Assembly: GCA_025057675.1 (NCBI GenBank) | Contig: JANWVE010000001.1 | Location: 7,566 to 66,981 of the forward strand | Source of the DNA: Bacteroidia bacterium | GTDB taxonomy: Bacteria > Bacteroidota > Bacteroidia > JANWVE01 | Direction: 5' to 3' | DNA length: 59,416 nucleotides | Shown: positions 1 to 57,994 of the stretch, in pieces | Numbering within the stretch: the first letter of the stretch is position 1 | How the letters are laid out: every line of letters begins with the position of its first letter | Made by a program: the position numbers and the translations under genes | Notes under the pieces: generated by a model | Databases searched by the model: none | The model's input: the letters and a program-made list of their open reading frames with translations, nothing else | Told to the model about the DNA's origin: nothing

Positions 1-598
1 TGGGCGTGTCCTTGTGGGCGTTTCGCTGGCGCTCATGCCCACAAGGTCGGCGTGCTACGGGCTAACGGTGCTGCGCCCCACCCGCCCACCCCCTGGACAA
101 GGGTTTGGGTGTCTGCAGAGGGCTTCGCACCAAGCCTCACGGCTTGCCCTTCGCATGCCTCACGCAAGCAGCAATAAACTAAACTCACTTATTCAAACTT
201 TAACCTTGTAAGTAACTGAAAAGGTCAGTTCCATCTTCCCAGCTCAAATAAGCAAAGATATAATTACGAAGGTAAAACTTTTTTACTCAACTTAAAATGT
301 TACAGAAGTTCTATCTATCCAAGATTTAACTTTTTACATGCTTGAAAATCAACATAAAACAAGATAAAGCAAGTGTAATTAAAACAAAGTAAAAAATTTT
401 AACCTTGTAACAGTTTCATAATCAACATGAAACAAGGTAAAGCAAAGATATATGTACAAATGAAGTAAAACATCAAAATGCTACTTGCGTGAGGGCTATG
501 GAGCATGCCGTTAGGCAGTGCGAAGCGGTAGCGTAGCACCGAGCGTCAGCGTAGTGCGCAATAGCCCGACCCGAGCGCAGCGAGGGACACGCCCAAAA
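1..598 (-). repeat. GC-arm/AT-core repeat, copy 1 (reverse core)
   Basis: Full-length member of the dispersed family, cut by the window start just inside its left tip. The left arm is the long type (with the CCCACCCGCCCACCCCCTGG block), the AT-rich core spans about 180-470, and the right short arm ends GGGACACGCCC at about 585-595. The core reads in reverse compared with most copies. Left tip hairpin: TTGTGGGC/GCCCACAA. Arm hairpin stems: CAAGCC-GTGA-GGCTTG (left) and TGCC-GTTA-GGCA (right). The right arm also has the closing pair GGGCTAT/ATAGCCC. The core's distal units are diverged and resemble copy 12 in lacking the usual third unit. Confidence 0.9.
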
Positions 599-653
599 TA
601 AAAAACTTAATTATCCGAGTATAAATCAAAGAGTAGAAAGCATTAAATTTTCT

Positions 654-661
654 TACCTTTG
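654..661 (+). promoter_or_regulatory. Bacteroidota -7 element TACCTTTG
   Basis: TACCTTTG matches the Bacteroidota -7 consensus TAnnTTTG and stands 5 nt before the ATG at 667. Transcription from it would begin at or next to the start codon, so the mRNA is probably leaderless. No convincing -33 box was seen. Confidence 0.6.
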
Positions 662-666
662 TACTA

Positions 667-1908: not shown

Positions 1909-1920
1909 AGTAATTTGATT

Positions 1921-2542
1921 TTTGTGGGCGTGTCCCTTCGCTGCGCTTCGGGTCGGCGTGCTGCGGGCTTCGCTGACGCTTCGGTGCTTCGCTGCGCTCC
2001 GCACTGCTCACGCACCCTCCGCATGCCTCACGCAGCGGCCTTTTGCCGTTTTACCTTGTTTTTAGACATATCTTTACTTTACCTTATTTAGTGCTGATTA
2101 TCAAGAATTTACAAAGTTAAAATTTTTTACCTTGTTTGAACCACGTTCGTTTTATCTTGTTTTACATTGATTATCAATCATATATAAGGTTAAACCTTGA
2201 ATACATGGACTTTTGATAATCCCTTAATCCTGAACATACAAATTTTATCTTTTTTTCAATTGATTTTCAGTAATTTACAAGATAAAAATATATTTTTATC
2301 TTGTTTTAATGTTGATATTCAGATACTTACAAGATAAACTTTTACATAAGTGGATTGAGTTTGATAGCCGCTTGCGTGAGGCATGCGGAGGGCGTGCGTC
2401 AGCACGGTGCGAAGCCTCTTACCCACGCCCTTAACCCCATAACCAGGGGGTGGGCGGGTGGGGCGTAGCACCGTTAGCCCGTAGCACGCCGACCTTGCCC
2501 ACACGAGCGCAGCGAGCCGTGGGCAAGGACACGCCCCAAAAA
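1921..2542 (+). repeat. GC-arm/AT-core repeat, copy 2 (forward core)
   Basis: Full-length copy between two + strand genes. Short arm left (about 1925-2038), AT core about 2040-2365, long arm right with the CCAGGGGGTGGGCGGGTGGGG block. Arm hairpins: TGC-GTGA-GCA (left) and CGTGC-GTCA-GCACG (right). Right tip hairpin TTGCCCAC/GTGGGCAA. Ends GGACACGCCCC with one extra C. Carries the conserved central core motif CCTTGAATACATGGACTTTT. Confidence 0.92.
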
Positions 2543-2628
2543 ATTAAAACCTAATCTCTCAATATGACTTCTTGTGTAAAGAAAAAATAGAATTAACATG
2601 AATTAAAGGTGCGTACCGCAGATTTGTG

Positions 2629-2636
2629 TATTTTTG
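2629..2636 (+). promoter_or_regulatory. Bacteroidota -7 element TATTTTTG
   Basis: TATTTTTG lies 4 nt before the ATG at 2641. This position rules out the in-frame GTG at 2626 as the start, because that codon lies upstream of the element. Confidence 0.6.
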
Positions 2637-2640
2637 TAAT

Positions 2641-3321: not shown

Positions 3322-3344
3322 AATTCGCCCTCAAAGTAAGATAG

Positions 3345-3830: not shown

Positions 3831-3951
3831 TATAGAATAAATAACTTCGCAAAGATATGAAAGATAAATACATGGGGAACAGGTTTTAAGTCATGCTTAC
3901 TTTTGGTACATTTGAGCGTTCTTGGAGTAGTTTGATTATTTTAAGAATATA

Positions 3952-4578
3952 TTTTTTTTGGCGTGTCCCTTCGCTGCGCTTCGGGTCGGCGTGCTGCGGG
4001 CTGCGCTATCGCTTCGGTGCTTCGCTGCGCTTCGCACTGCTCACGCACCCTCCGCATGCCTCACGCAGCAGTTTTGGGATGTTTTATCTTGTTTTTAGAC
4101 ATATCCTTGCTTTACCTTGTTTCTTGTTTAATGTTGATTATCAAACACTTACAAGGTTAAAAATTTTTGCTTTACTTGAATTGCGTCCATTTTATCTTGC
4201 TTTATCTTGATTTTCAAGCATGTACAAGGTTAAACCTTGAATATATGGACTTTTTACAACCTTTTAACCCTGAATATAAAAGTTTTACTTTATTTTGTAT
4301 TGATTTTCAATGATTTACAATGTAAAAATACATTTTAATCTTGTTTAGTCTTCATTTTCATACACTTACAAGATTAAGTTTTGTATAAGTGGGATTAGCT
4401 TACTTGCTGCGTGCGTGAGGCATGCGGAGGGCGTGCGATAGCACGGTGCGAAGCCCTCGCACACGCTCTCACTCTTGCCCAGGGGGTGGGCGGGTGGGGC
4501 GTAGCACCGTTAGCCCGTAGCACGCCGACCTTGCCCACACAAGCGCAGCGAGACGTGGGCAAGGACACGCCCAAAAAA
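3952..4578 (+). repeat. GC-arm/AT-core repeat, copy 3 (forward core)
   Basis: Full-length copy between two - strand genes. Left tip starts TTGGCGTGTCCC (first G of GGGCG changed). Arm hairpins TGC-GTGA-GCA (left) and CGTGC-GATA-GCACG (right). Right tip hairpin TTGCCCAC/GTGGGCAA. The long right arm carries the GGGGGTGGGCGGGTGGGG block. Confidence 0.92.
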
Positions 4579-4618
4579 TAATAAGACTTTGAAAAAATAA
4601 AAAGTTAAACTTCACATG

Positions 4619-7741: not shown

Positions 7742-7758
7742 AATAATACATAATAATA

Positions 7759-7766
7759 CAAAGGTA
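7759..7766 (-). promoter_or_regulatory. Bacteroidota -7 element TACCTTTG for the TPR-CHAT gene
   Basis: Read on the minus strand, TACCTTTG stands 17 nt before the ATG at 7741, leaving a short AT-rich leader. Confidence 0.55.
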
Positions 7767-7814: not shown

Positions 7815-7879
7815 TTTTTTTGGCGTGTCCTCGTGGGTATACGCGCAGCGTAACGCCCACAAGGACACGCCCAAAAAAA
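7815..7879. repeat. Short palindrome form of the repeat (copy 4)
   Basis: Consists only of the tip: TTTTTTTGGCGTGTCC, an inner stem TCGTGGGT/GCCCACAA (two imperfect pairs) around a loop rich in GCGCAGCG, then GGACACGCCCAAAAAAA. No arm or AT core. Lies between two tandem - strand genes. Confidence 0.85.
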
Positions 7880-9460: not shown

Positions 9461-10067
9461 TTTTTTTGGGCGTGTCCTTGACCACGTCTCGCTGCGCTCG
9501 TGTGGGCAAGGTCGGCGTGCTACGGGCTAACGGTGCTACGCCCCACCCCCTGGGTAAGAGTGAGCGTGTGAGCGAGGGGCTTCGCACCGTGCTACCGCAC
9601 GCCCTCCGCATGCCTCACGCATGCAGCAAGTAAGCTAATCCCACTTATACAAAACTTAATCTTGTAAGTGTCTGAAAATAAATACTAAACAAGGTTAAAA
9701 TGTATTTTTACATTGTAAATCATTGAAAATCAATACAAAATAAAGTAAAACTTCTATATTCAGGGTTAAAGGGTTAGAAGTCCATGTATTCAAGGTTTAA
9801 CATTGCAAATGCTTGAAAATCAATATAAAACAAGGCAAAGTAACAACGTTTGAAACAAGATAAAAAATTTTAACTTTGTAAATTCCTGACAATCAGCACT
9901 AAACAAGGTAAAGCAAAGATATGTCTAAAAACAAGGTAAAATGGCAAAAGACTGCTGCGTGAGGCATGCGGAGGGTGCGTGAGCAGTGCGGAGCGCAGCG
10001 AAGCACCGAAGCGATAGCGTAGCCCGCAGCACGCCGACCCGAAGCGCAGCGAGGGGCACGCCCAAAA
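9461..10067 (-). repeat. GC-arm/AT-core repeat, copy 5 (reverse core)
   Basis: Full-length copy in a divergent promoter gap. The long arm is on the left but lacks part of the CGCCCACC block. Arm hairpins CGTGC-GGTA-GCACG (left) and TGC-GTGA-GCA (right). Left tip stem TTGACCAC/GTGGGCAA has one mismatch. The right tip reads GGGGCACGCCC, with one base changed from GGGACACGCCC. Confidence 0.92.
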
Positions 10068-10209
10068 CTGAAATTATTTTTTAGAATAATATAGTATAGT
10101 ATATATCTGCGCATAAGTGGCAAAAAATTATGACCCAAAATTTGTAAGTTTAATAAATGAAGCATAAATTTACACCTAAAACTAATATTCCACCTTTCTA
10201 TGAACATCT

Positions 10210-11872: not shown

Positions 11873-12512
11873 ATTTTTTTGGGCGTGTCCTTGCCCACGT
11901 CTCGCTGCGCTTGTGTGGGCAAGGTCGGCGTGCTGCGGGCTAACGGTGCTGCGCCCCACACGCCCACCCCCTGGACAAGGGTTTGAACGTGGGCGAGGGG
12001 CTTCGCACCAAGCCTGACGGCTTGCCCTCCGCATGCCTCACGCAGCAGCAAGCATACTAATCCCACTTATGCAAATCTTAACCTTGTAAGTACCTGAAAA
12101 TGACCATCAAACAAGATATAATTCAATTTTAACCTTGTAAATCATTGAAAATGAACTCAAAATAAGGTAAAGCTTGTGTACTCAGGGTTAAGGGAGTACA
12201 GCAAATCCGTGTATTCAAGGTTTAACCTTGTAACTACTTGAAAATCAATACAAAACAGGATAAAGCGAAGGGAATTCAGACAAGATAAAAAAATTTAATC
12301 TTGTAAGTGTTTGATAATGAGCATCAAACAAGGTAAAGGATGCGTATGTATAAAAACAAGGTAAAACACCCAAAAGCTGCTGCGTGAGGCATGCGGAGGG
12401 TGCGTCAGCAGTGCGGAGCGCAGCGTAGCACCGAAGCGAAGCGCAGCCCGCAGCACGCCGACCTTGTGGGCATGAGCAAAGCGAAACGCCCACAAGGACA
12501 CGCCCAAAAAAA
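11873..12512 (-). repeat. GC-arm/AT-core repeat, copy 6 (reverse core)
   Basis: Longest copy (640 bp), between two - strand genes. Both tips carry an inner hairpin, but of different types: TTGCCCAC/GTGGGCAA at the left and TTGTGGGC/GCCCACAA at the right. Arm hairpins CAAGCC-GTCA-GGCTTG (left) and TGC-GTCA-GCA (right). Confidence 0.93.
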
Positions 12513-12541
12513 TACAATCAGACTATTAAATCTCATACAAC

Positions 12542-15044: not shown

Positions 15045-15109
15045 TTTTTTGGGCGTGTCCTTGTGGGCATAAGCGAAAGTGTAACGCTCACAAGGACACG
15101 CCCAAAAAA
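15045..15109. repeat. Short palindrome form of the repeat (copy 7)
   Basis: TTTTTTGGGCGTGTCC, inner stem TTGTGGGC/GCTCACAA (one G-U-type pair), GGACACGCCCAAAAAA. No arms or core. Sits in a divergent gap; the remaining 168 bp up to 15278 hold only the next gene's promoter. Confidence 0.88.
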
Positions 15110-18133: not shown

Positions 18134-18746
18134 TTTTTGGGCGTGTCCCTCGCTGCGCTCGGGTCGGCGTGCTGCGGGCTGCGCTATCGCTTCGGTGCTT
18201 CGCACTGCTTACGCACCCTCCGCATGCCTCACGCAGCAGACTTTGGATGTTTTACCTTGTTTTTAGACAAATCTTTGCTTTACCTTGTTTGATACTCATT
18301 ATCAAATACTTGCAAGATTAAAACTTTTTACCTTGTTCGAACCATGGCTATTTTACTTTGTTTTACATTGATTTTCAAGTATGTACAAGGTTAGACCTTG
18401 AACACATGGACTTTTTGTACCTCTACTACCCTGATTTTCGAAGTTTTACCTTATTTACAATTGATTATCAGGTATTTACAATATTAAAATTAGTTTTTAT
18501 CTTTTTTGATGTTCATTTTCACGTACTTACAAAGTAAAACTTTGAGTAAATAGATCCTGCCGACCTGCCAAGATCCTTGCGTGAGGCATGCGGAGGGCAA
18601 GCCGTCAGGCTTGGTGCGAAGCCCCTCGCCCACACTCAACCCATTGCCCAGGGGGTGGGCGGGTGGGGCGCAGCACCGTTAGCCCGTAGCACGCCGACCT
18701 TGCCCACACGAGCGTAGCAAGACGTGGGCAAGGACACGCCCAAAAA
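18134..18746 (+). repeat. GC-arm/AT-core repeat, copy 8 (forward core)
   Basis: Full-length copy between two + strand genes. Short left arm, about 10 bp shorter than in other copies. Arm hairpins TGC-GTAA-GCA (left) and CAAGCC-GTCA-GGCTTG (right). Right tip stem TTGCCCAC/GTGGGCAA. Confidence 0.92.
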
Positions 18747-20993: not shown

Positions 20994-21552
20994 TTTTTTT
21001 GACGTGTCCCTTCGCTGCGCTTCGGGTCGGCGTGCTGCGGGCTGCGCTATCGCTTCGGTGCTTCGCTGCGCTGCGCACTGCTCACGCACCCTCCGCATGC
21101 CTCACGCAGATAAGCCGCAAGCATACTAATCTCACTTGTTTAATACTTAACCCTGTAAGTATTTGAAAATGAACAATAAAAAAGGTTTAATATTATAAGT
21201 TATTGAAAATCAATTAAAAATAAAGTAAAGCTTATGTACTCAAGGTTGAAGGAGTATAACAAGTCCATGTATTCAAGGTTTAATCTTGCAAGTACTTGAA
21301 AATGAATACAAAACAAGATAAAACAAGTACGATTAAAACGAGGTAAAAAATTCTAACTTTATAGACGTCTGATAATCAAAATTGAACAAGGTAAAGCAGG
21401 AATATATATAAAAATCAGGTAAGGCATCAAAATACTGTTTGCGTGAGGGCTATGGAGCATGCCGTCAGGCAGTGCGAAGCGCAGCGTAGCACCGAGCGTC
21501 AGCGTAGTGCGGAATAGCCCGACCCGAGCGCAGCGAGGGACACGCCCAAAAA
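20994..21552 (-). repeat. GC-arm/AT-core repeat, copy 9 (reverse core)
   Basis: Lies in a convergent gap. Left tip begins TTGACGTGTCCC (one base changed). Arm hairpins TGC-GTGA-GCA (left) and TGCC-GTCA-GGCA (right); the right arm also has the closing pair GGGCTAT/ATAGCCC. Neither arm carries the GGGGGTGGGCGGG block. Confidence 0.92.
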
Positions 21553-23089: not shown

Positions 23090-23660
23090 TTTTGGGCGTG
23101 CCCCTCGCTGCGCTCGGGTCGGGCTACTGCGCACTACGCTAACGCTTCGGTGCTACGCTGCGCTTCGCACTGCCTAACGGCATGCTCCGTATCCCTCACG
23201 CAAACGGCATTTTCATGTTTTACCTCATTTTTAGGCATACATTAGCTTTACCTTGTTTAATACGGGTTATCAACTACTTACAAGGTTAAAATTTTTTACC
23301 TTATTTCAAGTGGGGTTATTTTACCTTGTTTTACATTCATTTTCAAGGATACACAAGCTTAAACCTTGAATGCATGGACTTTTTGCAGCCCTTTAACCCT
23401 GATTCCCAAAATTTTACTTTATTTTGAATGGATTTTCAATAATTTACAAGGTAAAAATATATTTTTGCTTTGTTTAGTATTCATTGTCAGGTACTTACAA
23501 AGTTAACGTTTCAATAAGTGGGGTTAGTGTGCCTGCCGCGTGCGTGAGGCATGCGGAGGGTGCGTTAGCAGTGCGTAGCACCGAAGCGATAGCGTAGCCC
23601 GTAGCACGCCGACCTTGCTTGCATGAGCGCAGCGAAACGCAAGCAAGGACACGCCCAAAA
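23090..23660 (+). repeat. GC-arm/AT-core repeat, copy 10 (forward core)
   Basis: Between two - strand genes. Left tip GGGCGTGCCCC. Arm hairpins TGCC-GTTA-GGCA (left) and TGC-GTTA-GCA (right). Right tip has the rarer stem TTGCTTGC/GCAAGCAA. The right arm lacks the GGGGGTGGGCGGG block. Confidence 0.92.
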
Positions 23661-25158: not shown

Positions 25159-26772
25159 CTATTTGAGATATATTTTAAGGGTTTTTCCTGCATAAATACG
25201 AGTGTCATTTAATCCATTCCATGCTTGGAGTTCCTTTACTGTTACCTTAAATTGCACCGCAATTTTTCCTAAGGTATCCCCAGGCTGAATAGTGTAAATG
25301 TACTCTTTTTGTCCGTGGGGTATAATAATAGGTTGCGTACTTGGCTTAGACTTGTCTTTGGCTATTTTATCTAAACTTTCCTTTTTAATGGAGTCAATAG
25401 GTAAAATGTATGAATTCTGTGAAGGATTGTTTTGTAACCAACGTATAGTGTTCTTAAAGGCATCTGCTAAAAATTCCCCTTTTAGTTGATAACCTCTGGG
25501 AGTAAGATGAACCATATCTCTACTCATTAAACCTGCTTGATTCCACTCTTTAGCTACACCATATCCGCCCGAAATCCAATACCAATCGTAGATAATGCAA
25601 TGCTCTTCTTGAGCAATTTTGTGGATGAGATCTACAAATTTAACCGCTGATTTGAGAGATACATTTCTCTTTTTCATATCTTGAGTAGTTGTGAGCATGA
25701 TGACGGCATTAGGACACGCTGCTCGTATATTCTCAATAATTTTTTTGATTTCAGTTTCTAAAGATGTGTCAATTTTATCTTTGTATAGATAGTCGTTTGT
25801 GCCGTAGTCTAATATAACTAAGTTAGGGGAAAAAACAGGTAATTGCTGCATAAACAAATCTTGCAACAACACTGAGAGAAACCGAGATGCCCCTACCCCT
25901 GCATTATGCAATAATAAGCCTTTATTTTCTGCACTTTCTAAACTCATTCCGTAAAATTCAAAATGGTCTTGAATGGGCGATGTTTTAATAGTGCGCAAAG
26001 TAATAGTTTTGGAAGTAAAGTTATCTAATGATATAGTAATTTCAGGTTTTTCGGGATAAGAGAATGTTTTTACAAGAATTTTTTTATCGCCTGTTTCTAT
26101 CTCAAAATCAAAACAAGTAGTGTCTTTTTTGACAAGTAGTTTTAGAAGTGTGTAGTTTTTAATATTTTCTCTGTTGAGCGTGAAAGATAAAGTAGCCCCC
26201 TCCTCTTGGGTGTGCACAGTCATCCCAGATACACCCAAAGTTAATTTAGGTTTGAGTACAATACATCGTGCCGCGGTCCAATTTCCTGTACATGATGTAG
26301 TAACCGCACAAGAAGGGTAAGTCTTTACCGCACTGTAATTGACCATTATACCTTGTCCGCCATCACCTAATACTTTAATGAGTTCCTCTCGTAACCGTTC
26401 AGGATAATAACCTGATTGTAAATGCGAGTCGCCCATGTGAAGAATGACCAGCTTTTGTTTGTCTACATTTTGCCATGCTTGGTACAAGGGTTCAATATCT
26501 TTTCGGTCATAAAATTGAATGTAGTTGAGTTGAGGGTACATCCATGAGTATTTTTCTTGTGCGCGTACCTGCAAAGAGAAAGGAAAAAGAATACTGAATA
26601 AAGTTATAGCCGTGTGTACCTGCGTGAGGTGCATGACGCATGCCGTTAGGCAGTGCGGAGCGTAGCGAAGCACCGCAGCGAATGCGGAGTGCAGAATGCA
26701 CCGACCCAAGCGCAGCGCAGGGACACGCCCAAAAATAAAATATAACCCTACAAATGTTTTAACCTGCTTCAT
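25159..26772 (-). CDS. SGNH/GDSL hydrolase with C-terminal LysM; repeat arm in signal region
   Basis: Periplasmic or surface SGNH esterase/acetyltransferase-like protein. SGNH blocks: VILHMGDSHLQSGYY (Ser116 from ATG 26772), VILDYGTNDYLY, and the catalytic pair in DMVHLTPRGYQ; the C-terminal ~45 residues (YTIQPGDTLGKIAVQF, VKELQAWNGLNDTRIYAGKTL) are a LysM peptidoglycan-binding domain. The ATG at 26772 is 2 nt after the stop of the previous gene and is probably the ancestral start, but residues ~14-50 are encoded by a repeat arm (26621-26735) that splits the signal peptide. ATG 26634, supplied by the repeat itself, gives MHLTQVHTAITLFSILFPF as a normal signal peptide and may be the working start (491 residues). 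Confidence 0.82.
   Translation of the reverse strand: MKQVKTFVGLYFIFGRVPALRLGRCILHSAFAAVLRYAPHCLTACVMHLTQVHTAITLFSILFPFSLQVRAQEKYSWMYPQLNYIQFYDRKDIEPLYQAWQNVDKQKLVILHMGDSHLQSGYYPERLREELIKVLGDGGQGIMVNYSAVKTYPSCAVTTSCTGNWTAARCIVLKPKLTLGVSGMTVHTQEEGATLSFTLNRENIKNYTLLKLLVKKDTTCFDFEIETGDKKILVKTFSYPEKPEITISLDNFTSKTITLRTIKTSPIQDHFEFYGMSLESAENKGLLLHNAGVGASRFLSVLLQDLFMQQLPVFSPNLVILDYGTNDYLYKDKIDTSLETEIKKIIENIRAACPNAVIMLTTTQDMKKRNVSLKSAVKFVDLIHKIAQEEHCIIYDWYWISGGYGVAKEWNQAGLMSRDMVHLTPRGYQLKGEFLADAFKNTIRWLQNNPSQNSYILPIDSIKKESLDKIAKDKSKPSTQPIIIPHGQKEYIYTIQPGDTLGKIAVQFKVTVKELQAWNGLNDTRIYAGKTLKIYLK
26621..26735 (-). repeat. Single-arm repeat fragment inside a coding region (copy 11)
   Basis: One GC arm (115 bp) from GCGTGAGG to GGGACACGCCC, without core or second arm. 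Hairpin TGCC-GTTA-GGCA, and a closing pair GGTGCAT/ATGCACC that differs in both strands from the GGGCTAT/ATAGCCC of other arms. It lies in frame within the SGNH gene. Confidence 0.88.
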
Positions 26773-28185: not shown

Positions 28186-28804
28186 TTTCTGGGCGTGTCC
28201 TTGTGGGCGTTACGCTGCGCGTATACCCACAAGGTCGGCGTGCTGCGGGCTACGCTAACGCTTCGGTGCTGCGCCCCACCCGCCCACCCCCTGGTTATGG
28301 GGTTAAGGGCGTGTGCGAGAGGCTTCGCACCAAGCCTGACGGCTTGCCCTTCGCATGCCTCACGCAAGCAGTCAGTACGCTAATCCCACTTAATCAAAGC
28401 TTTACCTTGTAAGTACCTGATAACGTAGTTTGAGTTTGCTAGCTCAAACCAATAAACACGTAACTACAAAAGTAAAACTGGCATATTCAGTGTTAAAGCG
28501 TTATCAAAAGTCCGTGTATTCAAGGTTTAACCTTGCAAGCAATTGAAAATGAACAAAAAACAAGATAAAACGAGGGCAGTTCAAACAAGGTAAAAAAATT
28601 TAACCTTGTAAGTACTTGATAATGAGCATCAAACGAGGTAAAGCAAGGATATGTATAAAAATAAGGTAAAACGTTAAAAGGCTGCTGCGTGAGGCATGCG
28701 GAGGGCGTGCGTTAGCACGGTGCGAAGCGCAGCGTAGCACCGAAGCGCTAGCGTAGCCCGTAGCACGCCGACCCGAGCGCAAGCGAGGGACACGCCCAAA
28801 AAAA
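28186..28804 (-). repeat. GC-arm/AT-core repeat, copy 12 (reverse core)
   Basis: Divergent gap between the O-acetylation operon and the SBBP gene. Arm hairpins CAAGCC-GTCA-GGCTTG (left) and CGTGC-GTTA-GCACG (right). Left tip stem TTGTGGGC/ACCCACAA with one terminal mismatch. The part of the core next to the long arm is replaced by a different sequence with its own hairpin GTTTGAG/CTCAAAC, as in copy 1. Confidence 0.92.
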
Positions 28805-28927: not shown

Positions 28928-31042
28928 ATGAAAACAAAAGTTTTTTCTTTTTTCTTGACTTGCTTTTTGCCTATAACAATACTGCTTGCAAAAAATAAAA
29001 AATCTGATAGTCAGCTAACCAAAATTGATTATCTGTTCTTTATTGAAAATAAAGGTCAATGGCATAATGACGTCTTATATTTATGCCGTATGAGCGGTTT
29101 AGACGCCTGGATTACAAAGTATGGCGTCAATTACACGTTTTACAAGGTAGAACAAAATAAAGTAACAGAATTTTGTACTCTCAAAAATAAGTCCGAGGAT
29201 TTTGAAAATCAAACTTTACTTGGGCATAGAATACTGTTTGAGTTAGAAAATTCTAATCCTAACCCTGTACGAGAAGGTAAAAAGCAGATAGAAACCTACT
29301 ACAACTATTTCATTGGCAATGATGAAACTAAACATGCTACGTATGTAGGTTTGTATAAAGAGGCTTGGGTTAAAAATGTGTACGAAGGAATAGATATACG
29401 ATATTATTTTGACGAGGGTAGATTGCGATATGACTTTGTGGTACAACCGTACGCAGATATTTCGCAAATTAGGTTTAAACTAAGAGGGCAAGATAAGATT
29501 TATACTAAGGGTGAAACCCAGCTTTGTTTTACCACGCGTTTTGGTGAAGCATCACTATCAGATTTGTGTACTTACCAAGATAACCATATCATACCAAGCA
29601 AATTTATTAGAAATGGTGAAACATGGCAGTTTTTTTTAAGCGATTATGATAGAACTAAGCTCGTGGTGATAGACCCATTAGTATACTCTACTTATATTGG
29701 GGGAAATGATTTTGATCATGGTAAAGACATATTTGTAGATGGCAGTGGCTGCGTGTATGTAACAGGTATTAGCAGGTCAGCCGATTACGATATCACTCCT
29801 GGAGTTTTTCAAACAGCATTTCAAGGAGAAATGGATGTTTTTGTTACCAAACTTAACGCCGCAGGTAATAAAATAGAGTTTTCTACCTATATTGGGGGAG
29901 AGCGCTTTGATGAAAGTAGTGGCATATTCGTAGATGGTAGCGGTTGTGTGTATATAGCAGGATGGACATACTCATCTAATTATGATGTTACTCCAGGGGC
30001 TTTTCAAAAAAAATCTGGGGGATATATGGATGTTTTTATTACAAAATTTAACGCAACAGGCAGTAGTCTAGTATATTCTACTTATATTGGGGGAAATAAT
30101 GATGATAAAGGAGCGGGTATGTTCGTAGATAATAGCGGTTGTGTGTATATAACAGGCTATACATTATCACCCGACTATGATGTTACTCCTGGTGCGTTCC
30201 AAACTACACATGGAGAAGAGGAAGATGTTTTTGTTACGAAAATTAACGCAACAGGTAGCAGTTTAGTGTATTCTACTTACATTGGAGGAGGTTCGAGGGA
30301 CTATGGAACAGATATATTCGTAGATAATAGCGGTTGCGTGTATATAACAGGCTATACATTATCACTCGACTATGATATTACTCCAGGGGCATTCCAAACT
30401 ACAAACCAGAAATATGATGATGTCTTCGTCACAAAACTCAACCCAACAGGAACTGCGTTGATATATTCTACTTATATTGGTGGAAATAATTCGGACAAGG
30501 GGAATGCCATATTTGTAGATGGTAGCGGTTGTGCGTATGTAACGGGTTATACCTATTCAACCAATTACGATGTTACCCAAAAGGTGTTTCAAGCTACAAG
30601 CGAGCCACATAGTAATATCTTTGTTACAAAACTCAATGCAACAGGTAGCAGTTTAGTGTATTCTACCTACATCGGAGGAAATAATGAAGATGTAGCTAAT
30701 GACATATTCGTGGATGGTAACGGCTGCGCGTACATAACGGGTTATACAAAGTCAACCAATTATGATATTACTACAGACGCATTTCAATCAAAAAATGGAG
30801 GAGGAGAATTGGAGGACGCTTTTATTACAAAACTCAACCCAACAGGAACTGCTTTGATGTACTCTACCTACATCGGAGGAAGTAATTCAGATCAGGGCAA
30901 TGCCATATTTGTAGACAGTAACGGTTGTGTATATATAACGGGTTATACCTATTCAACTGATTATGATATCACACCAGGGGCGTTCCAAACGAAAAGTGGA
31001 GGAGACAAGGAAATTTTTGTTACTAAACTAAAACTTAGTTAA
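28928..31042 (+). CDS. Secreted SBBP beta-propeller-repeat protein
   Basis: 704 residues with a signal peptide (FFLTCFLPITILLA). Residues ~30-235 form the N-terminal domain that usually precedes SBBP repeats (FIENKGQWHNDVLYLCR). From ~250 to the end there are seven units of about 57-60 residues built on STYIGG..D.G..IFVD.SGCVYITGYT....YDITPGAFQT....DVFVTKLN, with positions occupied by SBBP propeller blades. The unit sequences are also alike at the DNA level. The usual C-terminal type IX sorting domain is absent: the protein stops within a blade at FVTKLKLS. Likely cell-surface, ligand unknown. The ATG follows TAATTTTA, a weak -7-like site. Confidence 0.85.
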   Translation: MKTKVFSFFLTCFLPITILLAKNKKSDSQLTKIDYLFFIENKGQWHNDVLYLCRMSGLDAWITKYGVNYTFYKVEQNKVTEFCTLKNKSEDFENQTLLGHRILFELENSNPNPVREGKKQIETYYNYFIGNDETKHATYVGLYKEAWVKNVYEGIDIRYYFDEGRLRYDFVVQPYADISQIRFKLRGQDKIYTKGETQLCFTTRFGEASLSDLCTYQDNHIIPSKFIRNGETWQFFLSDYDRTKLVVIDPLVYSTYIGGNDFDHGKDIFVDGSGCVYVTGISRSADYDITPGVFQTAFQGEMDVFVTKLNAAGNKIEFSTYIGGERFDESSGIFVDGSGCVYIAGWTYSSNYDVTPGAFQKKSGGYMDVFITKFNATGSSLVYSTYIGGNNDDKGAGMFVDNSGCVYITGYTLSPDYDVTPGAFQTTHGEEEDVFVTKINATGSSLVYSTYIGGGSRDYGTDIFVDNSGCVYITGYTLSLDYDITPGAFQTTNQKYDDVFVTKLNPTGTALIYSTYIGGNNSDKGNAIFVDGSGCAYVTGYTYSTNYDVTQKVFQATSEPHSNIFVTKLNATGSSLVYSTYIGGNNEDVANDIFVDGNGCAYITGYTKSTNYDITTDAFQSKNGGGELEDAFITKLNPTGTALMYSTYIGGSNSDQGNAIFVDSNGCVYITGYTYSTDYDITPGAFQTKSGGDKEIFVTKLKLS
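29686..31035 (+). repeat. Seven tandem ~171-190-bp coding repeats (SBBP units)
   Basis: Units start at each STYIGG codon block. Units three to seven share long near-identical stretches such as GTAGATGGTAGCGGTTGTG, which points to recent duplication or gene conversion within the array. Confidence 0.75.
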
Positions 31043-31139
31043 GTCAAAAAAAATAGTAAATTTTTTAGGAGTTTTCATGTTGGTTTAGACACAAGAAGCG
31101 GGAAGAAAACTTAAATAAAATGGATAAGTTTATTTTACT

Positions 31140-31546
31140 TTCTGGGCGTGCCCCTCGCTAACGCTCGGGTCGGTGCATTCCGCACTTCGCTATCGCTGCG
31201 GTGCTACGCTAACGCTCCGCACTGCCTAACGGCATGCTCCATGCCCCTCACGCAATTTAACCCTGTATTTTGAGGTTTTATTTTGTTTTTAGATATAGTT
31301 TTGCTTTATCTTATTTTTTATTTATTTTCAGATATTTGCAAGGTTAAACTTTGACTAGGTGAACTTTATTTCTTTGCAGCATTCTTCGCGTGAGGCATGC
31401 GGAGGGCGTGCGTCAGCACGGTGCGAAGCCCCTCGCCCACGCTTTTACCATTGCCCAGGGGGTGGGCGGGTGGGGCGCAGCACCGAAGCGAAGCGCAGCC
31501 CGCAGCACGCCGACCCGAGCGCAAGCGAGGGACACGCCCAAAAAAG
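31140..31546 (+). repeat. GC-arm/AT-core repeat, copy 13 (core-deleted)
   Basis: Only 407 bp: both arms are complete but the core is reduced to about 110 bp, with one palindromic unit where first and last units appear fused. Arm hairpins TGCC-GTTA-GGCA (left) and CGTGC-GTCA-GCACG (right). Tip loops here are GTTA (left) and GCAA (right) within the GAGC/GCGAG stem. Reading frame of the downstream tamB stays open through the right arm from 31359. Confidence 0.9.
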
Positions 31547-37713: not shown

Positions 37714-38337
37714 TTTTTTGGGCGTGTCCCTTCGCTTGCGCTTCGGGTCGGCGTGCTGCGGGCTGCGCTATCGCTTCGGTGCTATGCTGCGCTCCGCACT
37801 GCTCATGCACCCTTCGCATGCCTCACGCAGCAGCATTCTGACGCCTTACCTAATTTGCATACATACCTTTGCTTTACCTTGTTTTATGTTGATTATCAAA
37901 CACTTAAAAGGTTAAGATTCTTTACTTTATTTGAACTGCTGTTACTTTGCTTTGTTTCTTATTCATTTTCAAGCATATACAAGGTTAAACCTTGAATACA
38001 CGGACTTTTTATACTCTCTTTAACCCTCATATCTAAATTTTACCTTATTCTCAATTGATTTTCAGGTATTTACAAGATTAAAGTACATTTTTACCTTGTT
38101 TGATGTTCATTTTCAGATACTTACAAGGATAAGTTTCGTATGAGTGAACTTAGTCTGATTACTGCGTGCGTGAGGCATGCGGAGGGCAAGCCGTCAGGCT
38201 TGGTGCGAAGCCCCTCGCCCACTCTTTTACTCTTGCTCAGGGGGTGGGCGGGTGGGGCGTAGCACCGTTAGCCCGTAGCACGCCGACCTTGTGGGCATGA
38301 GCGCCAGCGAAACGCCCACAAGGACACGCCCAAAAAA
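37714..38337 (+). repeat. GC-arm/AT-core repeat, copy 14 (forward core)
   Basis: Convergent gap between the TPM gene and folK. Arm hairpins TGC-ATGA-GCA (left, loop not G-initial) and CAAGCC-GTCA-GGCTTG (right). Right tip stem TTGTGGGC/GCCCACAA with GC-GCCA-GC in its loop; left tip GC-GCAA-GC. Confidence 0.92.
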
Positions 38338-41049: not shown

Positions 41050-41309
41050 GAAAGATAACTTTTACATGTATTTTGATTAAATACTTTTCGGATGCGTGGA
41101 ACTAATCCTTAGGTATTTTGTGTTTTTATTTTGATTTTTGTGCGAAAAAGGTGTTTCATAGCAGTAGTACAAAGCACAAAGGTTAAAGGTGAATAGATAA
41201 AGGTTTTACAGTGGCTAAATGCCACTGTTCTTAATTTGTTAAAAACATTAGTCTGCTGCTCATGTAAAAATTTAAGGGGGCAATATTTTGTAGTCAAAAA
41301 GATACAATT
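41050..41309. other. Intergenic stretch with a small hairpin
   Basis: No gene seen. An 8-bp perfect stem ACAGTGGC/GCCACTGT with loop TAAAT (41208-41228) is followed by a modestly T-rich stretch and could be a weak terminator for the FAH-family gene, although it lies 160 bp after the stop. Confidence 0.3.
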
Positions 41310-41915
41310 ATTTTTTTGGGCGTGTCCCTTCGCTGCGCTCGGGTCGGCGTGCTGCGGGCTGCGCTTTCGCTTCGGTGCTTCGCACTGCTGACGCACCCTC
41401 CGCATGCCTCACGCAGCAGTCTTTTGTCGTTTTACCTTGTTTTTAGACATATCTTTACTTTACCTTGTTTAGTGCTGATTATTAAGAATTTACAAGGTTA
41501 AAATTTTTTACCTTGTTTGAAGTGTTGTTATTTTACCTTGTTTTAGATTGATTTTCAAGTATATACAAGGTTAAACCTTGAATATATGGACTTTTGGTAA
41601 CCCTTTAACCTTGAATACTCAAGTTTTACCTTATTTTTCATTGGTTTTCAAGAATTTACAATATTAAATCTTGTTTTTATCTTGTTTGATATTCATTTTC
41701 AAGTACTTACAAGGTTAAAATTTGAATAGGTGGACTTCGTTTAATAGCTGCTTGCGTGAGGCATGCGGAGGGCAAGCCGTCAGGCTTGGTGCGAAGCCCC
41801 TCGCCCACACTCAAACCCCCACCCAGGGGGTGGGCGGGTGGGGCGCAGCACCGAAGCGATAGCGCAGCCCGTAGCACGCCGACCCGAGCGTAGCGAAGGG
41901 ACACGCCCAAAAAAT
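41310..41915 (+). repeat. GC-arm/AT-core repeat, copy 15 (forward core; reference copy)
   Basis: Cleanest copy for the core. Imperfect palindromic units, each TTTTACCTTGT to ACAAGGTTAAA, lie at 41459-41503, 41531-41575, 41624-41667 and 41675-41720. The unpaired central motif CCTTGAATATATGGACTTTT lies between units two and three. Arm hairpins TGC-GTCA-GCA (left) and CAAGCC-GTCA-GGCTTG (right). Both tips are the simple GAGCG(C/T)(A)GCG type. Confidence 0.94.
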
Positions 41916-45297: not shown

Positions 45298-45474
45298 CTA
45301 TTTTTTTCTATATAAAACTATGAAAATCCTATTATTTTTCTCAACTTACTGAAAAACAGTTAGATATATTTTATTCAAAAATGCGTATATTTATGCAAGT
45401 AGTATAATTTTACAACACAACAATATGATAATCAATGACCTATAAGATAAAAATAATATGTTACTCTATTTATT

Positions 45475-45985
45475 ATGGGCGTGTCCCTTCGCTGCGCTTC
45501 GGGTCGGGCTATTCCGCACTACGCTGACGCTCGGTGCTACGCTCACGCTTCGCACTGCCTTACGGCATGCTCCATAGCCCTCACGCAACCAGTATTTTGA
45601 TGTTTTACCTGATTTTTATACATATCCCTGCTTTACTTTATTTAATCTTGTTTATTTAATCTTGGTTATGAAATACTTACAAGATTAAGATTTTTTACCT
45701 TTTTTTATATTCATTTTCAAGTACTTGCAAAGTTAAACCTTGAATGCATGGACTTATCATAACATTTTAGCTCTGAATATGAAATTTTTATCTTATTTTG
45801 ATTTCATTTTCAGATAGATACAAGGTTAAGTATTGTACAAGTGAGATAGGTTCATTAGTCGCTTGCGTGAGGCATGCGGAGGGTGCGTCAGCAGTGCAAA
45901 GCACCGAAGCGAAGCGCAGCCCGCAGCACGCCGACCTTGCTTGCATGAGCGCAGCGAAACGCAAGCAAGGACACGCCCAAAAAAA
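45475..45985 (+). repeat. GC-arm/AT-core repeat, copy 16 (core shortened)
   Basis: Between two - strand genes. The core lacks about one palindromic unit (511 bp in total). Arm hairpins TGCC-GTAA-GGCA (left) and TGC-GTCA-GCA (right). Left arm closing pair GGGCTAT/ATAGCCC. Right tip stem TTGCTTGC/GCAAGCAA, shared only with copy 10. Confidence 0.92.
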
Positions 45986-48222: not shown

Positions 48223-48845
48223 TTTTTTTGGGCGTGTCCCTTCGCTTCGCTCGGGTCGGCGTGCTACGGGCTACGCTTCGCTTCGGTGCTTTGCTGCGCT
48301 TCGCACCGTGCTAACGCACGCCCTCCGCATGCCTCACGCAGCAGCATTTTGACATTTTACCTTTTTTATACCCGCTTTTGTCTTACCTTTTTTAACATTG
48401 ATTATCAATTACTTACAAGGTAAAAATTTTTACCTTGTTTTATGTATAGTCGTTTTTATCTTGTTTTAGATTGATTTTCAAGCATTTACAAGGTTAAACT
48501 TTGAATACATGGACTTATTACTACTCTTTAACCCTTGATACACAATCTTTACTTTATTTTGAATTGATTTTCAAGCATTTACAAGGTAAAAATATATTTT
48601 AACCTTGTTTAGAGTTCTTTTTCAGGGACTTACAAAGTTACATTTTGTATAAATGGAATTAGCATACTTGCTGCATGCGTGAGGCATGCGGAGGGCAAGC
48701 CATCAGGCTTGGTGCGAAGCCCCTCGCACACTCTTTCACTCTTGCCCAGGGGGTGGGCGGGTGGGGCGTAGCACCGTTAGCCCGTAGCACGCCGACCTTG
48801 CCCACACGAGCGTAGCGAGATGTGGGCAAGGACACGCCCAAAAAA
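48223..48845 (+). repeat. GC-arm/AT-core repeat, copy 17 (forward core)
   Basis: Divergent gap. Arm hairpins CGTGC-GTTA-GCACG (left, a stem otherwise mostly in long arms) and CAAGCC-ATCA-GGCTTG (right). Right tip stem TTGCCCAC/GTGGGCAA. Confidence 0.92.
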
Positions 48846-49588: not shown

Positions 49589-49590
49589 TA

Positions 49591-52245: not shown

Positions 52246-52299
52246 TTTTTTGGGCGTGTCCCTCGCTGCGCGTATGCCCACAAGGACACGCCCAAAAAA
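52246..52299. repeat. Short palindrome form of the repeat, hybrid (copy 19)
   Basis: GGGCGTGTCC and GGACACGCCC are intact, but the inside joins two tip types: CTCGCTGCGCG (simple tip) on the left and GCCCACAA (GTGGGC-type) on the right, which do not pair with each other. Confidence 0.85.
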
Positions 52300-52399
52300 A
52301 TACAACTTAACAAGCTATCAAGTTCTGTGTATGTTAATTATTTTACATAACTTCGTGGCATATCGTTTGTAAAAAGTTTATTATCCTAAGTCCAATAAC

Positions 52400-53506: not shown

Positions 53507-53564
53507 CATTTTTACAATCATATTAAGCGATTTAGATTATGTTTGAATTCTATAAGATATTTAC

Positions 53565-54136
53565 TTTTGGGCGTGTCCCTTCGCTGCGCTTCGGGTCGGG
53601 CTATTCCGCACTACGCTGGCGCTCGGTGCTTCGCTTCTCTCCGCACTGCCTAACGGCATGCTCCATAGCCCTCACGCAAGGGGTATTTTGATGTTTTACT
53701 TTATTTATACACGTATCTTTGCTTTATCTTGTTTTAGTTTGATTGTCAAATACTTACAAGACTAAAATTTTTTACTTTGTTTTAACTGTGTTTGTTTTAC
53801 CTTGTTTCATATTCATTTTCAAGTATTTGCAAGGTTAAACCTTGAATACATGGACTTTACACCATCCTTTAACCCTGAACGTTGAGATTTTACTTTTTTT
53901 TAGATTGATTTTCAATTATTTATAAGATTAAAATGTGTTTTTATCTTGTTTATTGTTCATTTTGAGGTACTTACAAGGTTAAGGTTTGAACAAATGGACT
54001 CAGTTTACGTTACAGTTTGCGTGAGGCATGCGGAGGGTGGGCGTTAGCCCAGTGCGAAGCGCAGCGAAGCACCGAAGCGAAAGCGTAGCCCGTAGCACGC
54101 CGACCCGAAGCGCAGCGAAGGGACACGCCCAAAAAT
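53565..54136 (+). repeat. GC-arm/AT-core repeat, copy 20 (forward core)
   Basis: Between two + strand genes. Arm hairpins TGCC-GTTA-GGCA (left) and TGGGC-GTTA-GCCCA (right), the latter a stem seen nowhere else in the window. Left arm closing pair GGGCTAT/ATAGCCC. The right arm lacks the GGGGGTGGGCGGG block. Confidence 0.93.
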
Positions 54137-54165
54137 TAAATCAAACAAGATTGAAGGCTTATCTA

Positions 54166-54173
54166 TAACTTTG
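54166..54173 (+). promoter_or_regulatory. Bacteroidota -7 element TAACTTTG
   Basis: Lies 6 nt before ATG 54180 and contains the in-frame TTG at 54171, which therefore is not the start. Confidence 0.55.
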
Positions 54174-54179
54174 CAAAAT

Positions 54180-57100
54180 ATGAAGATAAATCTATGGCTT
54201 CGTTGGGCAATCGTATTGATAGGACTGGCAGTGGTAATGTTTATACACAAAAAACAAAAAGAAACCCTCAAAAATATAAGTAAAATAGATAAAAATACCG
54301 TCCAAAATGTATTCACTACGTTAGAAATAAAAGGATTTCACTTGCTTAGTAAATTATCTCAACAATCTCGGTTAGATACATTACTTCTACCCTATCATCA
54401 CGCACATTTGTTTGAAAAAATTAACACTATTCAAAATGAAGAGCATTTCTACATCTATGTATTAGACTACAATCACACCTTGATAGCCTGGAATACAAAC
54501 GAGTATACCCCCACTAACGCTGAATGGGATACACAAATCGGGTTAAAAAAACCTTTCACATTTTTTAAAAAAAATATTGTTTATTACAGCCTATTCGATG
54601 AGATTTCTAACCCACAGCAAGGAATAGTAGGCTATGTATTTGTAGCTATCCCATTATGTAAAAGATACAGTATTGAAAATGCATATATTCAATCTTCCTC
54701 TATTTTTGACACTAAATCTATTCAGTTTGACCTTACTTCGGATACCCTTAACACTTCCGCTATTCCAATATACAATCAGCAAAAAGAATATGTTACAAGC
54801 ATATACCTGCGAGCAAAAACTAACCAAATTTTAGATATTGAATACTACTTTGTAATAAGTGTTTTTGCATGGCTTACTTTGTTAATTTTGGTAATACAAC
54901 ATACTATCAAACAGATAATCTCATCACCCTTTTTACGCACTTTAATTTTTACAATCACTATCATTTTAGTGCGCTACATAATGGTATATGCTCACTTTCC
55001 ACAAAAGGATTATCCTATACCTCTTTTCTCGCCTACCTATTATGCATCCAATATTTGGAACGCATCTCTGGGCGATTTACTGATTAACACAATACTTGGA
55101 TTATATCTTACTTTTCAATGGTACTATACCTTATCACAAAAAATTTCACTCCTCTGCCCATTGATACAAAGAAAAAAATATATAAAGATACTTTTCTCAA
55201 TACTGGTGTATCTTGTTTTTGTATTAAGCACATTTATCTACCAGCAGATTGTGTACTCAGTTATTATACATTCTAACATACGTTTTGATTTTACCTATAA
55301 CCCGCAAATAGATATCTATACGGGTATTGCAGTTCTATGCCTAATGTTGATTTTTATATGCTTTTTTTTAGTGCAATACGGTTTAATTGGATTTTGGATA
55401 GAATTATTTGATTCCAAACACGTGATGATACTTGTTTTAACTCACATATTTGTAGGAGTGGTTAATTTTTTTATTAGCAAGATAGAGAATTATGTACTTT
55501 GGTGGATTATACCTTCTTATTTTGTAGCATTTACATACATTCGGTATTATACAGAGTACAAAGAAAAACTTTTTTTTAGCTTCAATCACAGCTTAGCATT
55601 AGTGGTTGTTTTTGGTATTAACATGGCAGCGTATCTTCGTTTTTACACAGAGGAGAGACATAAACAAGAACAAGTTCAGTTTGCTTTACGTAAGGCCAAG
55701 CAGCATGATGAAATTTTAGAAAGTTTATTCAGTGAAATAAGCCAACAAATTAAAAAAGACCCTTTTGTTCAGCGTTTTATTGCTGATAGCACAGCTTATA
55801 CACCCGCACTCATTCAAAAAATAGAGCGTTTAATTACTAATATCACCCAATACTATACTTGCGACATTGCAATCACAGACAATAAAAATAAAATATTATA
55901 CAACCCTAAAAGCACTTTACTTCGTGTAAATGAAAAAACAGTACTCAAAAATGAGTATCAAATTCAAAAAGAACTGTATTTTATTCCATATAATAGAGAG
56001 TTCATAGAAAATTTATACGTTGCTATCATTCCGTTTGCACAAAAAGATAGAACTATAAATGTACATATTGAATTTATACCGAATACAGTATATCGTAATG
56101 GCTTATATCCAAACTTTTTAGTAGATAAAAAGCAGCAAAAATTTTTACAACGTGCTTCTAAATACAGCTATGCCGTTTATTATAGTAATCAATTAGTGAA
56201 TATGCAGGGTAATTATGATTACAGTTTTCAAAACAATATCTGTAAAACACATTTAGCAGAGTTACAAGGTATTTGGCAGAGAGATAAAAACTATTTACAC
56301 TACATATACTCCCCAGAGACACAAAAGATTATTATTGTAACCCGAAGGATGCCTAACATTATTGAGCTATTTGCTTTGCACTCTTATTTGATATATGCTT
56401 GGGCGATATTATTCACAATCTTAAGTGCATTTTATTGGGTAAAATACTATATCAGAAGAAAGAAATTACGTTTTAACTTGTATTACCGTACTAAAATTCA
56501 AATTTACTTGCTACTAATGAGCCTCATTCCTTTATTCATCATTAGTGTAATATCCATTCCATTTATTAAAAAAAGTTATTTTGAGGAGGTTCAAAGGGAA
56601 TTGAAGCGCCAGACACAAGCAGTACTCTCTGCTATTCAAGCTAAGAATTTTGTAGAAAATGATTTTGTGCAATACTCTTCAACATTACAAAATTTAGTTG
56701 CGGATATTGCTACCCTTACGCAAAGTGATATAAATTTATATTCTAAACAAGGCAAATTAGTAGTTTCTACGCAGCCCAAAATTTTTGAGTTAGGATTACT
56801 TTCTACGATTATTAACCCTAATGCATATTTTCACTTGAACATGCAATACCAACAGGAGTATATCCAAGACGAGCAAATGGGCAGACTTTCTTATATCAGT
56901 ATTTATGTTCCAGTGATTGACAAAAATCTTAACATGATAGGTATTCTGAACATGCCTTACATTACTCGGCAGGGGCAATTGGAGGGAGAAGTAGCGCGTT
57001 TTCTTTCTTATCTTATCAGTATTTATGTTGTTATTTTGTTGTTGTTATCGGGTTTAGCGTTGTTATTATCTCGTACTTTGACCAAGCCGTTGAATGTTCT

Positions 57101-57920
57101 TAGACAGCGCATTGAGCAAATCCGATTAGGGAAGAGAAATGAAAAGATGGAATGGAAATCTAATGATGAGATTGGTGCATTAGTAAATGCATACAATCAG
57201 ATGGTGGAGAAGCTAGCGCTTAGTGAGAGAAAATTAGCCAGTTCTGAACGGGAAGCAGCTTGGCGAGAAATGGCACGTCAGATAGCTCATGAAATAAAAA
57301 ATCCGCTTACACCAATGAAGTTGAGCATACAACATCTCTTACGCGCTCAACGCGATAACCACCCTAATCTACCCACTATGATGCAAAAAGTAGCTCAAAC
57401 TTTACTTACAGAAATAGAGTCGTTAAATGAAATTGCTACCTCTTTTTCTAACTTTGCTAAAATCCAACAACAAGAACCCGAGGTTATTGATGTTCAAAAC
57501 CTACTCAAACAGAACATTGCCCTGTATCAAAGTCATGAGGAGGTTACTTTTCAAGTTGATTTACATCAGAAGCCTTGTTTTATTTACGCTGATGCTTCTG
57601 CAATATCCCGTGCCTTCCAAAATCTTATCAAAAATGCCATTCAAGCTATGGAAAGGAGTGAAAAAAAGATTTTATCTATTACGTTAAATAAAGAAAGAAA
57701 TCAGATTCATGTAATCATCAAAGACACGGGATGCGGTATAGAACCGATTCATATAGAGCGTATTTTTGAACCTAATTTTACCACAAAAAGTGCGGGTACG
57801 GGATTAGGATTAGCCATAAGTAAGAGGGCAATTGAAAACGCAGGAGGGACTATTATTGTGCAAAGCGCACTTAATATAGGTACAACATTTTTTATTACTT
57901 TACCTGAGCATGAGTTGTAA
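54180..57920 (+). CDS. Large NtrY-like sensor histidine kinase
   Basis: 1246 residues. One helix at the N-terminus (about 9-25), a ~190-residue periplasmic domain, a central block of about seven helices (~220-480), a second extracytoplasmic domain, another helix near 745, a third extracytoplasmic domain (~790-930), a helix at ~940-965, then HAMP (TLTKPLNVLRQRIEQIRLGKR), HisKA with His1037 in ARQIAHEIKNPLTP, and HATPase_c with N-box NLIKNAIQAME, G1 DTGCGIEP, and FTTKSAGTGLGLAISK. The KNPLTPM H-box is NtrY-type. No response regulator is adjacent. The signal sensed is unknown. Confidence 0.85.
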   Translation: MKINLWLRWAIVLIGLAVVMFIHKKQKETLKNISKIDKNTVQNVFTTLEIKGFHLLSKLSQQSRLDTLLLPYHHAHLFEKINTIQNEEHFYIYVLDYNHTLIAWNTNEYTPTNAEWDTQIGLKKPFTFFKKNIVYYSLFDEISNPQQGIVGYVFVAIPLCKRYSIENAYIQSSSIFDTKSIQFDLTSDTLNTSAIPIYNQQKEYVTSIYLRAKTNQILDIEYYFVISVFAWLTLLILVIQHTIKQIISSPFLRTLIFTITIILVRYIMVYAHFPQKDYPIPLFSPTYYASNIWNASLGDLLINTILGLYLTFQWYYTLSQKISLLCPLIQRKKYIKILFSILVYLVFVLSTFIYQQIVYSVIIHSNIRFDFTYNPQIDIYTGIAVLCLMLIFICFFLVQYGLIGFWIELFDSKHVMILVLTHIFVGVVNFFISKIENYVLWWIIPSYFVAFTYIRYYTEYKEKLFFSFNHSLALVVVFGINMAAYLRFYTEERHKQEQVQFALRKAKQHDEILESLFSEISQQIKKDPFVQRFIADSTAYTPALIQKIERLITNITQYYTCDIAITDNKNKILYNPKSTLLRVNEKTVLKNEYQIQKELYFIPYNREFIENLYVAIIPFAQKDRTINVHIEFIPNTVYRNGLYPNFLVDKKQQKFLQRASKYSYAVYYSNQLVNMQGNYDYSFQNNICKTHLAELQGIWQRDKNYLHYIYSPETQKIIIVTRRMPNIIELFALHSYLIYAWAILFTILSAFYWVKYYIRRKKLRFNLYYRTKIQIYLLLMSLIPLFIISVISIPFIKKSYFEEVQRELKRQTQAVLSAIQAKNFVENDFVQYSSTLQNLVADIATLTQSDINLYSKQGKLVVSTQPKIFELGLLSTIINPNAYFHLNMQYQQEYIQDEQMGRLSYISIYVPVIDKNLNMIGILNMPYITRQGQLEGEVARFLSYLISIYVVILLLLSGLALLLSRTLTKPLNVLRQRIEQIRLGKRNEKMEWKSNDEIGALVNAYNQMVEKLALSERKLASSEREAAWREMARQIAHEIKNPLTPMKLSIQHLLRAQRDNHPNLPTMMQKVAQTLLTEIESLNEIATSFSNFAKIQQQEPEVIDVQNLLKQNIALYQSHEEVTFQVDLHQKPCFIYADASAISRAFQNLIKNAIQAMERSEKKILSITLNKERNQIHVIIKDTGCGIEPIHIERIFEPNFTTKSAGTGLGLAISKRAIENAGGTIIVQSALNIGTTFFITLPEHEL

Positions 57921-57929
57921 AGGCAATTT

Positions 57930-57994
57930 GTTTTTTGGGTGTGTCCTTGTGAGTGTTTCACCTGGCTCATGCCCACAAGGACACACCCAGAAAT
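57930..57994. repeat. Short palindrome form of the repeat with compensated tips (copy 21)
   Basis: Both tips share a paired change: GGGTGTGTCC at the left and GGACACACCC at the right, against GGGCGTGTCC/GGACACGCCC elsewhere. Inner stem TTGTGAGT/GCCCACAA is partly mispaired. Lies in a convergent gap of 85 bp. Confidence 0.85.

Follow-up and report, generated by a model that had tools for sequence, protein, structure and literature searches.

Our analysis revealed that the genome of a bacterium of the class Bacteroidia is pervaded by one family of non-coding repeats, whose full element of roughly 600 bases consists of two inverted units of ~110 nt around an AT-rich core of ~340 bp. As the arm turned out to be a structured unit occurring throughout the class, the element is to be read as an inverted pair of such units enclosing a genus-specific core. 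The composite is probably an old, non-autonomous repeat of REPIN/MITE-like kind, which selection confines to the space between transcription units, whose copies exchange tracts and whose motifs are maintained by selection. A share of ~15% of a small genome held by a single repeat family that never lies within genes is exceptional in comparison with the MITE families in the consulted part of PMC10969869, and the family represents a natural experiment on the sequences that selection will tolerate in the space separating transcription units.

Copies in the window and in the host genome

The window, i.e., the whole stretch of 59,416 nucleotides analysed here, comprises bases 7566-66981 of contig C111 in a 2.89-Mb draft host genome (G000; 336 contigs, 91% complete). 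Its genes form an ordinary Bacteroidota set (ribonucleotide reductase, 2-oxoacid dehydrogenase, HPPK, CoaE and others), and the closest named relatives of the 2-oxoacid dehydrogenase, with identities of at most 68%, belong to Bacteroidota in every case. A beta-propeller (SBBP) gene with a DUF7948 domain carries in-frame tandem repeats of 195 nt (65 aa) at 29679-31076. Two congeners, G001 and G002, were compared with the host, protein identity being about 75-78% in each pairing, and the samples comprised 549 kb (host), about 690 kb (G001) and 1.03 Mb (G002) of DNA. Outside operons, the order of genes is heavily scrambled across these samples, even in element-poor G001, at a protein identity of ~77%. 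Genes were called with a small purpose-written hexamer-based caller, the full window copy at 41314..41912 served as the query of the genome search, and a profile was built from the window copies.

Fifteen full copies, one arm fragment and four short palindromes were recovered in the window, all of them intergenic. Full elements on the forward strand are located at 1922..2541, 3955..4576, 18135..18745, 23090..23660, 37716..38335, 41314..41912, 48226..48843 and 53565..54134, and the anatomy is exemplified by the first of these, with a left unit at about 1926-2034, an AT core at about 2035-2372 and an inverted right unit extending to 2535. Two further forward copies have a shortened (45473..45982) or mostly deleted core (31140..31543). 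On the reverse strand, full elements lie at 9464..10067, 11877..12509, 20996..21551, 28187..28801 and 1..598, the last being cut at its left end by the window edge and recognised by its profile match and arm pair. The solitary arm unit or fragment is found at 26641..26734, likewise on the reverse strand. Short palindromes, which have no strand, occupy 7822..7876, where only the outer ends and hairpin 1 are present, 15051..15107, 52252..52292 and, in a diverged form reading GGGTGTGTCC...GGACACACCC, an 85-bp convergent gap at 57937..57990. The initial annotation had counted the same full copies and arm fragment, along with five short palindromes, of which four were found again; its total of ~9.2 kb compares with 8.94 kb, or 15.1% of the window, covered by the profile alone. 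A conserved 19-mer of the arm occurs 20 times in the window, where none would be expected. Open frames of 90-105 aa cross element arms at 3893-4210, 9899-10207, 12245-12517, 41109-41405 and 54044-54316; they are not common to the copies and would be spurious calls in an automatic annotation.

The family is also abundant in the host genome beyond the window. Of the repeats in the 549-kb sample, 151 are full copies and 43 are short or arm-only forms, which together account for 16% of its DNA, and a 147-kb subset chosen by contig number, blind to hits, holds 36 full copies and 14 arm forms (14%). Extrapolation yields about 700-800 full copies for the host, or ~15% of the genome. Coding density in the host is 73%, as against 90% in G001. 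Both units could be identified in 116 host full copies, and in each of these they form an inverted pair with GGGCGTG facing outward.

The composite of units and core is restricted to one genus among the genomes searched, and the profiles matched none of 80 Bacteroidota loci, the only hits of that scan being loci of the congeners. Not a single core was detected in 688 kb of G001, where arm units of about 110-130 nt occur singly, while 23 cores and many solitary units are present in 1.03 Mb of G002; some solitary units also occur in the host. Full elements of G002 cluster on few contigs (C25, C62, C86, C166 and C202). Since some proteins encoded on these element-rich contigs have second copies elsewhere in the bin, the contigs are possibly mis-binned ones from a related species.

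The arm as a structured unit of the Bacteroidia

The unit follows the layout TTTTT-GGGCGTG-YCC-hairpin-GGTCGG...CTCACGC over about 110 nt, with CTCACGC-A at its end. The fold derived from the alignment of 59 units comprises an outer stem (GCGTG/CACGC), a first hairpin that is replaceable, a second stem and inner hairpins; the second stem occurs as GGCGTGC/GCATGCC, GGGCTAT/ATAGCCC or GGTGCAT/ATGCCCC. Both sides of 15 out of 27 base pairs were changed with pairing retained, a pattern that fits a structure adopted by RNA or by single-stranded DNA. Template-switch correction of palindromes could also generate this covariation, which alone does not prove an RNA function. Evidence for the strand is weak, with 39 G-T against 7 A-C oppositions, nearly all in one column. 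Because the lengths of the units differ by numbers not divisible by three, the units share no reading frame.

The pattern GGGTCGGGCTATNCGC was encountered in 42 of 295 Bacteroidia genomes, as opposed to one genome for the reversed control pattern, and the covariance model of the unit matched sequences from 17 genomes of other genera, the best E being 1e-10. These out-of-genus units have in common the ends GGGCGTG(C)CC and (A/C)TCCCTCACGC together with GGTCGGGCT after the first hairpin. The loci L231, L233-L236 and L240-L256, along with many Bacteroidia genomes, display the form GGGCGTG(C)CC-hairpin-GGTCGGGCT...ATCCCTCACGC, in which the first hairpin is freely replaceable. The structured unit spans at least a dozen Bacteroidia families and deserves a family of its own. 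In G116 (C12:24-460) units are placed head to tail at a spacing of 89-130 nt, forming a small tandem array in another family, and in G001 (e.g., L061:16187-16301) the first hairpin is often CACCCTTCGGCAAGCTCAGGGT, which looks as if a hairpin widespread between bacterial genes had been spliced into the unit.

The arm-core design had been described in the initial annotation as unrecognised. The window had no Rfam match at the gathering score and a search with a single element gave chance-level matches only, which led to the rejection of a known RNA family, and among CC-licensed papers none was found to name the unit, searches with unit sequences returning only unrelated work. The arm itself, however, is not unique to this design; the arms reveal a structured unit with strong, clean covariation, distributed over many Bacteroidia families and absent from Rfam and the papers searched. 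A viral carrier was rejected, as none of 2.9 million viral contigs contains the arm 19-mer.

Placement between transcription units

None of the 194 host copies in the 549-kb sample overlaps a called gene, and the tight operon gaps of the window hold none, which bears out the earlier description of a dispersed family at transcription-unit borders. The independence of orientation from gene direction was likewise upheld, elements in tandem gaps pointing 36 times in the same direction as the genes and 42 times in the opposite one. In tandem gaps the element begins a median of 39 bp past the stop codon and leaves 99 bp ahead of the next start, whereas the median distance is 107 bp to either start in divergent gaps and 45 bp to either stop in convergent gaps. 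After subtraction of the element, spacers measure about 107 bp (convergent), 159 bp (tandem) and 229 bp (divergent), within the range of ordinary spacers as previously proposed. A TANNTTTG box is present in the remaining 5' spacer of ~116 bp for 72% of genes preceded by a full copy, compared to 4% in shuffled sequence, 13% for operonic genes and 62% in long element-free gaps. The retention of this box implies that the copies lie outside intact promoters. On the explanation favoured here, purifying selection would spare copies nowhere but between transcription units, clear of promoters and 3' ends.

Two candidate roles at these sites were rejected. The random orientation and a single match to the Bacteroidota promoter consensus among 151 elements speak against a promoter donor. 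As for an intrinsic terminator, the order of the parts is the reverse of what such a structure shows, with the T-run ahead of the hairpins and the A-run behind them.

Occupancy was less strict than first claimed. Genome-wide, 45 of the 196 gaps longer than 130 bp in the host sample are devoid of both elements and short palindromes, and one 132-bp convergent gap of the window is free, so the proposal that all gaps longer than about 130 bp are occupied does not hold. The accompanying proposal that a gap never holds two elements survives as a tendency and fails as an absolute rule: random placement on border gaps would produce about 30 doubly occupied gaps (simulation minimum 14-26), and two were observed. 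Both of these two-core gaps, missed in a first count that gave none, are on contig C44 and carry their cores in inverted order; inspection of merged clusters disclosed two further gaps with an additional arm unit. Near-single occupancy is therefore a strong tendency, far from chance and not absolute. Doubly occupied gaps may have been removed by selection or by recombination.

Conserved motifs of the core

The core is composed of diverged motif blocks of ~45 bp, with the succession TTTACCTTGTTT...TTGATTTTCAA...ACAAGGTTAAA, and carries about eight sites of the ACCTTGT/ACAAGGT type along with several TTGATTTTCAA motifs. Compared with the remaining sequence, cores are enriched about 22-fold in ACAAGGT and about 300-fold in TTGATTTTCAA. 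Core positions that look paired covary no more than independence predicts, and A-C mismatches are found there as often as G-T, which rules out the core as a structured RNA and indicates that it is conserved as sequence rather than as a fold. In recently related windows, conserved core columns change at 0.012 per site and variable columns at 0.07-0.08, a difference of about 7 times, column conservation having been computed without the compared pair. This slow change points to constraint on the core motifs of individual copies, differences in mutability being a less likely alternative, and the constrained motifs fit candidate protein-binding sites. Such constraint exceeds what would be expected of a pure fossil parasite and counts against the explanation favoured here; in conjunction with the exchange of tracts described below, it means that the copies are not simply decaying inserts.

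These properties raise the question of a function at borders or in chromosome organisation, whereby a protein would bind the core array, the arms would bracket it, and each copy would be kept for separating transcription units or organising the chromosome. We regard this reading, the main alternative, as unlikely, although several observations agree with it: copies sit almost singly at unit borders without preference of orientation, their placement outside promoters is symmetric, the roughly eight conserved motifs per core are constrained even on recent branches, and ~15% of a 2.9-Mb genome has been retained. Against it stand the gaps above 130 bp that lack a copy and the situation in the congeners, where the coreless G001 (688 kb) and G002 with its 23 cores (1.03 Mb) have ordinary gene density, from which it follows that the element is not essential to the genus. 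The more specific proposition that ~750 near-singly placed copies, their arrays read by a dedicated DNA-binding protein, constitute an insulator or chromosome-folding system taking up ~15% of the genome and made from a folded unit of class-wide occurrence appears rather doubtful.

Divergence, exchange and gene order

Divergence between copies amounts to about 20% when the whole element is compared and to 25% in the core. Core distances between G002 and host copies (0.248) equal those among host copies (0.250), so no recent burst is visible. Linkage disequilibrium is gone beyond ~40-100 bp and distances of different segments are mostly uncorrelated; low long-range linkage would also follow from a star-like history. 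Near-identical tracts of 130-270 columns are nonetheless shared by copies with much lower similarity in their other parts, and three of the seven longest join copies less than 6 kb apart, where 0.1 would be expected. Such tracts, together with their excess between neighbours, indicate exchange by gene conversion. The window provides an example in the mosaic copy at 9464..10067, one half of which is 96% like the copy at 3955 and the other 89% like the copy at 1922. According to the explanation we favour, the copies would persist as a community swapping tracts, mostly among near neighbours, with selection keeping the motifs.

Neighbouring genes were kept at none of the element-filled gaps (0/75 in G002, 0/51 in G001), in comparison with 15/50 (G002) and 3/23 (G001) of the element-free border gaps (Fisher 2.5e-7 and 0.027). 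As filled gaps never keep their neighbours, no orthologous pair of an empty and a filled gap was found. The lost adjacency also fits recombination at elements, and the family might be driven by rearrangement, its copies being recombination joints and the filled borders breakpoints, with exchange between inverted copies giving rise to both mosaicism and exclusion. Besides the loss of adjacency at all filled gaps and its retention at some element-free ones, the mosaic copies, the exchange between neighbours and the inverted arrangement in both two-core gaps are in line with this possibility. Borders, however, show little conservation of gene order even when the two element-poor congeners are compared with each other, G001 and G002 having kept it at 1/39 convergent gaps and 0/22 gaps above 250 bp. 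The element-free gaps are thus not a well-matched control for adjacency, and elements may merely sit where order is free. Rearrangement explains neither the copy number nor the origin of the family, and we consider this explanation distinctly improbable.

Element ends, machinery and relation to known repeats

The composite, in which an inverted pair of Bacteroidia-wide structured units encloses a genus-specific array of motifs, most probably spread long ago as a REPIN/MITE-like non-autonomous element, the machinery that would have mobilised it in trans having since been lost or escaping recognition. Among 123 copies no target-site duplication was detected, no offset or length rising above shuffled pairing beyond noise, and the suggestion of an insertion with duplicated target site did not find confirmation, although a duplication may have eroded with age. 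No transposase is encoded among the window proteins scanned, as stated in the initial annotation. Y1_Tnp was absent from all three genomes of the genus (0/3; host assembly 91% complete) in a search that was positive in E. coli and other controls; in the host, the search for transposases returned three weak DDE_Tnp_1 fragments and that for rve gave no match. Accordingly, the transposase with the same ends that had been envisaged was not encountered, the Y1, rve and DDE searches disclosing no insertion-sequence partner that shares the element ends.

The elements resemble REP/BIME/REPIN sequences in being intergenic, in their folded units, in high copy number and in the inversion of two units. 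They differ in that the units are multibranched and ~110 nt long, compared with 20-40 bp in REPs, begin with TTTTT-GGGCGTG and end with CTCACGC-A in place of the GTAG/CGTC tag, and enclose a conserved core of ~340 bp, in a genus without Y1_Tnp. A TnpA_REP subclass of Bacteroidetes, 2.6, has been described with genes flanked by atypical secondary structures that have copies elsewhere (PMC6006769). Bacteroidetes hosts, a non-canonical fold and dispersal are shared with the arms, and the flanking structures might be equal to the arm unit, the two being likened by description only. The structures of subclass 2.6 flank genes; among the matches listed, the nearest strict-pattern copy of the class-wide unit lies 3.2 kb (G039) and 7.4 kb (G116) from a Y1 gene, and no adjoining unit was seen in the genomes tested. 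That the elements are REPINs proper, with units moved as REPs by a RAYT such as subclass 2.6, is in our judgement very improbable. Palindromic units in an inverted, intergenic pair and their occurrence throughout Bacteroidia would suit this assignment, as would the description of subclass 2.6 and the Y1_Tnp genes in 14 of 22 tested unit- or pattern-bearing genomes, but the other eight and the host genus have none, the RAYT-like genes of G039 and G116 are about 3 and 7 kb away from the nearest listed unit on their contigs, and the unit ends are devoid of the tag.

Bacterial MITEs such as Correia, ERIC, Chunjie and QMITE are, in the consulted part of PMC10969869, also non-coding and intergenic, with inverted ends and a fixed size class accompanied by deletion derivatives. 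The same part of that source gives typical sizes below 500 bp and terminal repeats of 4-30 bp, in contrast to ~600 bp and ~110 nt here, and its highest MITE count is 711 ERIC copies in Photorhabdus. Unlike MITEs, the present family combines ~15% of the genome with no detected target duplication and no partner transposase found. The BrickBuilt MITE of Porphyromonas gingivalis (PMC4596501) likewise belongs to Bacteroidota, is always intergenic and has core repeats within inverted ends; it has a core of perfect 23-nt tandem repeats, is present in 19 copies and shows promoter activity, whereas the elements described here have dispersed, diverged core motifs, hundreds of copies and a promoter consensus in 1 of 151 copies. 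The element behaves like a REPIN or MITE, but as the tests of tag, transposase and target duplication failed, we designate it a new variant and not a member of the REPINs or MITEs.

The ends of the element are sharp, the T-run and the A-run being part of the terminal repeat. A minority of ends is extended outward by AAGTCTAAAAAATAATTTTAC, as observed at 35505 of host contig C222, at 31167 of host contig C336 and at 23090 and 10067 of the window. When present on both sides, the AAGTCTAAAAAATAATTTTAC extension lies within an inverted repeat and perhaps represents the intact terminal repeat.
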